This document shows positions 45,601-57,516 of a DNA stretch of 64,000 nt, piece by piece. Location: the NCBI GenBank assembly GCA_963170055.1, contig CAUJGJ010000072.1, forward strand, positions 1,577,001-1,641,000, given 5' to 3'. Below the pieces are notes generated by a model. It searched no databases, was not told the origin of the DNA, and saw nothing but the letters and a program-made list of their open reading frames with translations. The stretch's first letter is position 1. Every line of letters begins with the position of its first letter. The position numbers were made by a program, and so were the translations under genes. The DNA is from Halisarca cf. caerulea. Lineage: Eukaryota; Porifera; Demospongiae; Chondrillida; Halisarcidae.

Positions 45601-48600
45601 AGACAAAGTGATTGTTAAGGGTGGTTGCAATTGTGGAGGGGTCAGAACCAAGAGAGTTCCAGGATTTTGAAGGCATGGAAAGAGAGGGTAGACTTTTCAG
45701 TGTTCCAGAGAGTTTTTGGGGAGGCATCATTGGCAATGAGCATTTGGAAATATTCAATTTTCGCCTTACATTGTAGTGATACTATTACGTAGGTTTCTTT
45801 GCTTCTTATACTCTTCCCAAGCTGAGGGTGATGGAGATGACAGAAAAGACCTTTGCAGCTTGTTCCTCTTGTCCATTTCCTGCCAAATCGGTTTGGAGAT
45901 CCATGGAGTACATTTCTTCTTTACTCTCGCTGTCTTCACTGGAGCATGCTTGTCAAGGACATTAGCAAAGAGTGCATTAAACAAAAACACTTTGTCATGA
46001 ACATTGTCAAAGAGATCCAACAGAAACCAAGGGACAGAGACCAGGTCGTCATTGAAAGAAGAGGGTGAGAAATTCATGAAGGAACATTTACTTATAGTTT
46101 TGTGGCAGGTTTTGGGGTTGGACCAGTCAACAGAAAGAACAATAGGCAAGTGGTCAGAGATTGAGAGATTAAGAACAGCAGAGTGAGATATGGGGACATC
46201 AGAAGAAGCAAGAAAGTGGTCAATGACAGAGCAATGAGAATCATAAATACAAGTAGGGTCAGTAATGGGACATGAAAGAGAGTGTGAAGAGATGAAGTTA
46301 AGAAGTGATTTAGAATGTGGGTGATTGACGTCGGAAGTGTCTACATTCAGGTCTCCACAGACAATGACATGCTTATAGAAATCAACATGGACTCGACGTT
46401 AGAACAAAGATTATGGATTAAACTAGCTGGTAGACCAGGAGGACGGTAGAAGCAGCCAAAGGCAAAACTAGCCAAAGAAGATTTGAATGAACTGATGGAG
46501 AGCCACAAGAATTCGACATCACTGCAAGAAGCACCAGAAACAGAAGAAGATGAAAGAAGAGAACCAGACAGATAGTCAGCAACATAGACAGCAACACCAC
46601 CACCAGAGTGAGAGCGATTGCAGCAATACAAATGGTAATCGGGCAGAGACACTTCACAATCAAGGCACAGAGGAATCCAGCCACGACTCAGTAACAGCAA
46701 ATATGTCAGCTTTTGCAAACAAATAAACGACTGGAACCATCAAAGTGGCAAAGGAGACTTCGAATGTTCAGATGGGGGATCTTGAGGTTCTTCTTGACTG
46801 CCAATGTCAGCTTCTTCTTCTTTTGATACGTAGAGTGAGGCACACTTGGATCAGGGTTATTCTCGATATCAACAGAACACAGTAAATACCTGTTACGATG
46901 TCAATGGTTGCTCTGAAAGATGGAAAACAGCCAAGACATCTTCTTTACCAAGTGCCGAAGGTGCAAAAACACAACTTCATGCGGATATCAAGGCAGCACA
47001 ATTGGAGAGAACTTAACAGATTTGGCTAAAGGTAGATATAGGTCAAAACAAGAGTCTTTGTCAGGAAAAAGAATGGGTAGGTAGAGGGAAAGGACAGCAA
47101 CCAAGAGACTGAATAGTGCAATTTAGTCTCGTTCCCAGACCCACTTCCGCCCGCCATTTTTATTTGGGCGGAAAAGTGGGTCTGGCAACTATCTCCATAT
47201 TTCTTGGTTCGAATCTGCGAATCCGCTGAAACCAATCAGATTGCTGGGTTGCGAATATTAATGAGAAAGTCACGTTTGACCTCGTGACCGACTCTTGTGG
47301 AACAGTAGAACTGTTTGAGAAAGTAACAGACACAGAACATCATTTTTTGCTGCTCTTATTCAGATATCGTCCACACGTATTGTGTTTCCGTAATAGTCGC
47401 GAGCGTCGCGAACAAGACAGGGAGGAAACTTTGCACTACCACCAAACCATTGCCATCATTGACTAGGAGTAGAGCGGATAAGTTGCGACTACATATTTTC
47501 ACTTGGTCAGGTGTCGCCGCGCAAAAACAGCACCGATTTTCAGCCATGAACGAAACGTAGACGGAGTGGATAACTTGAGTCTAAACCATCGTTTCAAAGG
47601 GGAGCAGAGGAGCGTTGAAACGATTTAGCGCGCTGAAAAGTTATCGTTTTAAATTCATAAGTCTTCACGAGAACGTCATCGTCACCTCTTTGATTGAAAA
47701 TGTCTAGCCTTCACGAGTCTTCCTTTTTCCTTTCTTCCTTTTAGGTTTAGAATGATTCACATGACTTGCACGAGGTATTTCGTAATCCATAACCAAGAAT
47801 TATGGAGATAGTTACCAGACCCACTTCTCCGCCCAAATAAAAATGGCGGGCGGAAGTGGGGCTGGGAACGAGACTAAGTGCAATTATGCAAGCCGCCATT
47901 TTCATATATCGATTATCACTTAGGGGTGACAAATTTTTAGAGAGATATTATTCTAGTTGTTGGACTATTGTTAAACACATCTTGAAACAATACGTAAATA
48001 GTTCTTGTCCCAAAATAATCATTCATATACCGTTTCACCCATCACATGCATCTTCAGGCACATGCAATACAATACGTAATGCAGTTTTGCATGTGCCTGA
48101 AGAAGCCCATGATGGGTGAAACGTTGTGCGAATGATTATTTTGTGACAAGAACTATTTGAGTTTCTTCAAGACATGTTCAACAATAGTCCTACAACTAGA
48201 ATAACATACAACTACTGTAACATGTCTAACAACTTCTATGCAATTTTAGAGAGAATACGGTATTTCATAACAAACATACCATGCATGCATGCATTTAATA
48301 CTAACCGCTAGCTCCCATGCTTTCACTTTTTCAGCAACTTTGTCATAAGCCATTAGTGGACTGCACTTGTCCCACTCTGTGCTTCGAAGTAGTTCAGAGA
48401 TAGGGAACTTTGAAGAATATCCCAAAAAGCTCTTAACACTTTTAAAAATTCTACCCATGGTACCTAGATAGAATGTACCAGCTGCAATATACCAAAATAA
48501 AACTACATTTCTGATATAAGTTCTATATACCTTCACTTTCCTGCTTTGATGCTTTACTTTTGCTCTTGCTATGTAGTAATGTGGCGAGATCTGTTTTGGC

Positions 48601-57516: not shown

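Follow-up and report, generated by a model that had tools for sequence, protein, structure and literature searches.

The window, by which we mean the whole 64,000-nucleotide stretch of Halisarca cf. caerulea DNA analysed here, most likely covers the 5' part of one giant minus-strand gene for a RNF213/mysterin-type AAA+ protein. The exons read within it are listed below in gene order. Window coordinates are used throughout; the gene runs leftward on the minus strand, and negative values refer to its continuation past the left end of the window. The draft model named in the list is a rough exon-chaining model of ∼5,000 residues, which begins at exon 1 and ends at window coordinate -56,541; it surely includes wrong exons, some of them within repeats.

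57094..57516 (423 nt), minus strand: exon 1, PA-like domain 1; splice borders, open frame, copies on contig C3, dN/dS 0.42-0.50
54476..54901 (426 nt), minus strand: exon 2, PA-like domain 2; stop in the C3 copy and common AG border, open 80% identical copy at C3:116008-116430
49270..49692 (423 nt), minus strand: exon 3, PA-like domain 3; borders, C3 copy 64% identical, dN/dS 0.40, found by the exon 1+2 profile
48531..48932 (402 nt), minus strand: exon 4, fourth array domain; borders, C3 copy 72% identical, dN/dS 0.41
48306..48481, minus strand: exon 5, phase 1 to 0 connector from array to stalk; conserved on C3 (70% aa identity, dN/dS 0.69), draft model
43018..43152, minus strand: probable stalk exon with approximate borders; matches C3:302883-303026 (73% aa identity), omitted by the draft model
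41253..41348, minus strand: probable stalk exon; matches C3:304677-304793 (77% aa identity), draft model
41092..41189, minus strand: probable stalk exon; matches C3:304823-304960 (78% aa identity), draft model with a score of about 0
27734..27933, minus strand: predicted stalk exon; draft model only
20776..21010, minus strand: predicted stalk exon; draft model only
4879..5456, minus strand: predicted stalk exon, start uncertain (5199 in one model version); draft model only
4469..4793, minus strand: predicted stalk exon; draft model only
1..635, on to -111, minus strand: exon of the RNF213-like gene; lies in the open reading frame (ORF) -114..698, which matches protein P0010

Exons 1, 3 and 4 have AG/GT borders and a single open frame at the coordinates given in the first-pass annotation, which had read four exons of 423, 468, 423 and 402 nt. 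Exon 2 is more likely to be 426 nt in length (54476-54901, not to 54943), because the C3 copy has an in-frame stop in the part that aligns with the additional 42 nt of the longer reading and because AG is present at the shorter border in both copies. The four exons had also been described as phase 1 in and out. Introns 1-2, 2-3, 3-4 and 4-5 are all of phase 1; in all three copies read, an ATG stands 5 nt past the acceptor of exon 1, which is therefore probably the first coding exon, and a phase in would then be meaningless for it. Elsewhere in the draft model, 46 exons score above 2 and none of them is of the 1-1 type; lowering the threshold to 0 adds two weak ones (32986-33195 and 39687-39770). 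The HGG ending ascribed to two of the exons proved not to be conserved, the C3 copy reading QGS and FGG there.

Around these exons lie what we take to be a non-LTR-retroelement-like stretch (44841-46739, minus strand, in the intron after exon 5), a Gypsy-like open frame of 1092 aa (60273-63551, plus strand, upstream of exon 1) and open frames like hAT-type transposase (16353-17600, plus strand). Divergent to the RNF213-like gene, there is one 969-aa open frame on the plus strand (L012:5079-7985, corresponding to window 69079-71985), which encodes a von Willebrand A domain together with an E2 (ubiquitin-conjugating) domain (E 8.7e-34). This frame is duplicated on C3 with 92% DNA identity; it is possibly a functional partner of the RNF213-like gene.

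DNA search of the sponge's own genome (G000) with exon 4 identified a second site, C3:278047-278445, which is 82% identical. The region C3:272-279 kb aligns with all four array exons in the same order, with DNA and protein identities of 74-81% and 62-72%, respectively; this recurrence argues that the four minus-strand exons are real. The exons of this copy are 426, 421, 423 and 399 nt in length; its exon 1 is at C3:272167-272592, and its 421-nt exon 2 (C3:272988-273408) carries a frameshift near the 3' end. The copy keeps exons 1-5 and three stalk-like exons that match those at 41-43 kb of the window. Since exon 2 is frameshifted and the genome search with the AAA4 exon gave no match after it, the C3:272 kb locus looks like a partial copy.

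A third copy has its exon 1 at C3:102636-103055 (84% aa identity) and an open exon 2 at C3:116008-116430 (80% identical), which are 13 kb apart, compared to 2 kb in the window. Its exons 3 and 4 were not found in the assembly; they are known only as proteins (P0006 and P0009) of one ENA record, and either an assembly gap or a haplotype difference may account for this. The same record also has ORFs that are, by eye, identical letter for letter to the C3 copy.

The dN/dS ratios between the copies (Nei-Gojobori) are 0.42, 0.50 and 0.42 for the three pairs of exon 1, and 0.35 (up to the C3 frameshift), 0.40, 0.41 and 0.69 for exons 2, 3, 4 and 5, respectively. All of these are below 1, which indicates protein constraint in every exon compared, of no great strength. 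That the array is a decaying duplicate without function is very improbable. Such decay would fit the frameshift and the missing AAA4 match of the C3:272 kb copy, as well as ratios that are not very low, whereas all four array exons of the window and exons 1 and 2 of the third copy are open and no exon compared reaches a ratio of 1.

The first-pass annotation had placed the array at the N-terminus of a large helical protein. This was right, and the protein is most likely of the RNF213/mysterin AAA+ type, RNF213 being an enzyme that senses infection in humans. Beyond the left end of the window, further along the strand of the gene, there are two Walker motifs, GETGVGKT and GEPGSSKT, and the ORF at -30203..-29643 matches RNF213 PDB chains with an E-value of 2.5e-7. 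With a query from the draft model, 345 proteins were retrieved at E 1e-5 or better; among the 120 of them listed, sponges lead, and the names include Oscarella, Ephydatia, Amphimedon and Oopsacas. Two of the Oscarella proteins match RNF213 chains with E-values of 2.1e-68 and 5.6e-67. We compared all ORFs of at least 25 aa in 124 kb with the 120 listed proteins at E 1e-3; matches were found for 31 of 1454 ORFs on the minus strand and for 3 of 1572 on the plus strand. The nine minus-strand ORFs with P0062 as the best match keep the order of P0062. The ORF -114..698 matches P0010 of Oscarella (E 1.4e-25) and, at E 1e-3, 30 of the 120 listed proteins. It is the only one of the 31 that reaches into the window, at the left end, and no minus-strand ORF between 698 and 57516 matches any listed family protein at E 1e-3; the stalk exons at 4-48 kb would therefore be too diverged for this test.

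The last ORF of the gene (L028:49-300) codes for a SAM domain (E 4.5e-12), and the gene extends over more than 115 kb. Just before the SAM domain, a 628-aa open frame (L028:525-2408, minus strand), largely rich in Pro, His and Gly, gave no Pfam match; perhaps it is a linker of the same gene. The RZ finger (PF20173) has seven matches in the genome, one of which, on C30, is over the cut-off; none is on C69 or C3, where a split or diverged finger would escape such a search. Ubiquitin-ligase activity is therefore not to be assumed for this gene. On C285, C238 and C29, weak RZ matches (E 0.0068, 0.0074 and 0.33) follow AAA4 exons of a more distant type at 21-34 kb, with both on one strand, and the genome may thus hold both RZ-bearing and RZ-less RNF213 types. 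Motif scans of 60 kb downstream recognised no RING, which an intron could split. Neither the array exons nor the N-terminal segment from Oscarella matched CBM20 in Pfam searches.

The connection between array and AAA core was followed through the copies. Four joined pieces, from exon 5 to 41 kb, found no RNF213 when used as query, so that support for the window's stalk exons comes from the paralogue and the draft model. A genome search with the AAA4 exon gave eight matches, its own included; the identity is 97% at C3:191014, 63 and 70% on C89 and C30, and 39-41% on C238, C75, C285 and C29. In the third copy, exon 1 (C3:102636), exon 2 (C3:116008) and the AAA4 exon (C3:191014) are on one strand and in the same order as in the window gene; the distance from exon 1 to AAA4 is ∼88 kb there and ∼84 kb for the window copy. 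This arrangement indicates that exons 1 and 2 and the AAA core were duplicated together. Array, stalk and AAA core would then belong to one transcript.

We also considered that the four exons form a separate gene beside the RNF213-like gene and are not its N-terminus. In favour of this, exon 5 and the next conserved exon are more than 5 kb apart, with the retroelement-like stretch between them, and in the C3:272 kb copy no AAA4 match follows exons 1-5 and the three stalk-like exons. Against it, exons 1 and 2 were duplicated in order with the AAA4 exon, exon 5 and the exons at 41-43 kb are conserved along with the array, and P0016 of Oscarella unites a related domain and an AAA core in one annotated protein; a separate gene is thus improbable.

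Internal exon duplication had been proposed for all four exons. In profile-profile comparison against 40 column shuffles per exon pair, the observed score was reached by 1, 0 and 0 shuffles for pairs 1-2, 1-3 and 2-3, respectively, and by 20, 9 and 11 shuffles for the three pairs that include exon 4. The shared core noted earlier is thus beyond chance in exons 1-3, and the scores of the pairs with exon 4 are ordinary. Held-out tests were run on 673 ORFs (8 exons and 665 decoys), with the remaining exons realigned in three ways. The profile of exons 1 and 2 ranked window exon 3 first (E 3.8e-5, 3.7e-5 and 7.3e-6; best decoy 0.41, 0.41 and 0.076), and that of exons 2 and 3 ranked exon 1 first (E 2.8e-4, 2.2e-4 and 1.9e-3; best decoy 0.35, 0.36 and 0.17). 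The profile of exons 1 and 3 found exon 2 with E-values of 0.021, 0.063 and 0.51, the last one behind a decoy. With the profile of exons 1, 2 and 3, exon 4 of C3 gave E-values of 0.18, 1.2 and 0.088 (best decoy 0.22, 0.26 and 0.22), and window exon 4 was not found among the 673 ORFs. Together, the shuffle and held-out tests support the view that exons 1-3 are mutually homologous duplicates. Exon 4, whose pairs score no better than shuffles, resembles them in size, phase, place and, by eye only, in its beta-alpha-beta core.

The repeated domain had been called PA-like. None of the window's four exons has a Pfam match at E 1. Among 11 exon sequences, exon 1 of C3 matches PF02225 (E 0.045, 14.3 bits; residues 48-107 to profile positions 29-94), and three other exon copies match unrelated Pfam families with E-values of 0.094-0.21. 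Of seven consensuses, two match PF02225 (0.16 and 0.044), three match nothing, one matches another family, and one matches PF18212, the ZNRF3 ectodomain, at 0.087, second to PF01947 at 0.076. The ZNRF3 ectodomain is described as a typical PA fold (PMC3861454). PA-fold models thus rank first or second for one exon copy and three of the seven consensuses, with alignments over the C-terminal half of the models; the best scores for PF02225, 14.3 bits for exon 1 of C3 and 14.4 bits for the consensus of exons 1, 2 and Oscarella, stay below its curated cut-off of 23.9 bits. Search of the own genome with PF02225 gave matches at three other places and none at the array.

Predicted folds had been suggested as a check. 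AlphaFold gave mean pLDDT values of 40.5 for exon 1, from an alignment of 8 rows, and 49.2 for exon 3, from one of 11 rows; both models are too poor to judge the fold either way. A Foldseek search of the PDB yielded nothing at E 0.001 or below, and the 50 matches listed include no PA protein; for the poor exon 3 model, phosphoribosyltransferases were listed first, none of them significant. Sequence searches of the PDB with the array gave no match. The 8-row exon alignment gave 9 matches among 1081 candidates and exon 4 gave 3 among 2193, all apparently from the same species. Because of the sub-threshold matches, the poor AlphaFold models and the lack of a significant Foldseek match, we use PA-like as the best available label and not as a demonstrated fold; a PA fold is weakly supported, by these matches to two PA-fold models.

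The same gene and the same duplication may instead involve another alpha/beta fold (Rossmann-like, flavodoxin-like or new), with the PA likeness being a convergent pattern. This is a real possibility: many folds have beta-alpha-beta patterns, zero Pfam matches are over the cut-off, the Oscarella segment and several exon copies match other families at E 0.03-0.2, and phosphoribosyltransferases come first, without significance, in Foldseek on the poor exon 3 model. What speaks for the PA fold is that two separate PA-fold models appear, over their C-terminal half, among very few sub-threshold matches.

Oscarella, a homoscleromorph sponge, has related proteins. Its proteins P0010, P0016 and P0025 (Oscarella lobularis) are RNF213-like and annotated at NCBI as 'uncharacterized protein'. 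P0010 and P0016 are collinear with the window gene; P0010, which as annotated starts inside the stalk, likewise ends in SAM, and in P0016 a single related domain was found at the N-terminus (residues about 41-150), compared to four in the window gene. Among the 120 listed proteins, the best match of the exon 1+2 profile is this N-terminus (E 6.2e-4, residues 85-134). The segment was picked after scanning the 120 proteins with seven profiles; it is also the best match of profile 1+2+3 (0.037), it ranks second with the exon 1 profile (0.13; P0096 leads at 0.01) and with 1+3 (0.45), and it is not notable with the other three, whose best matches are other proteins or places. In a retest with decoys, the exon 1+2 profile gave E-values of 6.8e-5, 7.0e-5 and 1.3e-4, which are optimistic because the segment had been chosen after scanning. 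When the segment itself served as query, exon 1 of C3 ranked first (E 0.0017, with the best decoy at 0.07). In the retest, the segment was missed by the single-exon profiles of exons 2, 3 and 4 and by the profile of exons 2+3, and the kinship rests mainly on exon 1. In Pfam, the segment matches DUF6432 (E 0.028), not PA, and search of the Halisarca genome with it gave no match. The N-terminus of P0062 was weaker than P0016 as a related domain and was dropped; a likeness of exon 5 to P0016, seen by eye, was also rejected, as BLASTP showed nothing at the position expected (best E 0.92).

Orthologues in sponges had been named as a further check: P0016 provides one related N-terminal domain, and no array was found there. 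As this RNF213-like protein carries one such domain, the single domain seems to be older and the array derived.

Like vertebrate RNF213, the sponge gene has a dynein-like AAA core with two RNF213-type Walker motifs, a long helical stalk and an extra N-terminal domain. Different from vertebrate RNF213, no RZ was found after its AAA core, no RING was seen and the array has no CBM20 match; it has a C-terminal SAM domain, and its N-terminal domain is of another kind and repeated. The PA-TM-RING ligases (RNF13, GRAIL/RNF128, ZNRF3 and RNF43) also have an N-terminal PA domain on a ubiquitin-ligase protein; they are membrane proteins whose PA domain is outside the cytosol. To our knowledge, these ligases have a single PA domain, no AAA core and no array, and PA domains are otherwise only single and luminal or extracellular. 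The first-pass annotation knew of no described family with this combination. Among the papers listed in searches of the open-licence literature, none combines RNF213 with a PA-like array and none is on tandem PA ubiquitin ligases. A single-domain version exists in Oscarella P0016.

Taken together, we favour, with a probability of about 0.5, the reading that the window gene codes for an RNF213-type AAA+ protein whose four-domain PA-like array was formed, at least in large part, by exon duplication and acts as a binding head. One phase-1 exon with a single ancestral PA-like domain would have been duplicated into at least three of the four array domains, giving four similar-sized domains, one per exon, at the N-terminus. 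The 1-to-0 connector exon would join the array to the helical stalk; the dynein-like AAA core and the C-terminal SAM domain would follow outside the window. The array may form a cytosolic head at the tip of the stalk, which would recognise a ligand or partner and would recruit or trigger the ATP-driven machine; SAM may help to assemble the protein.

The head would sit where human RNF213 carries CBM20. According to PMC11549300, this CBM20 comprises residues 378-515, strong positive selection in human RNF213 is concentrated in CBM20 and the adjacent stalk, and a truncated protein that lacks this part fails to be recruited to pathogens, with the authors' caution that the truncated protein forms bright structures. 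The N-arm of mouse RNF213 is described as starting with a disordered region and continuing as a helical stalk (PMC7311170). By analogy, we infer that the array binds a ligand or partner, because PA domains are described as protein-binding (PMC9424811 and PMC3861454) and because sensing is suspected to take place at the N-terminus of human RNF213. The array may also have an immune role.

A broader reading, in our view rather unlikely, is that the RNF213-type machine has an exchangeable recognition head. This would be CBM20 in vertebrates and, in an RZ-less, SAM-bearing sponge subfamily, an exon-duplicated, fast-evolving, cytosolic PA-like array, the number of whose domains may vary from one gene copy or haplotype to another.

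The means by which RNF213 detects pathogens that are unrelated to one another is treated as an open question in PMC11549300, with attention now on the N-terminus. If the favoured reading is true, a sponge relative with a different and multiplied N-terminal domain would mean that this end of the protein is modular, and it would be a natural comparison for locating the binding part. In addition, a PA-like domain would here be used in tandem and in the cytosol. The array suggests that animal lineages may differ in the sensing end of the RNF213-type machine, through exchange and multiplication of its domains.
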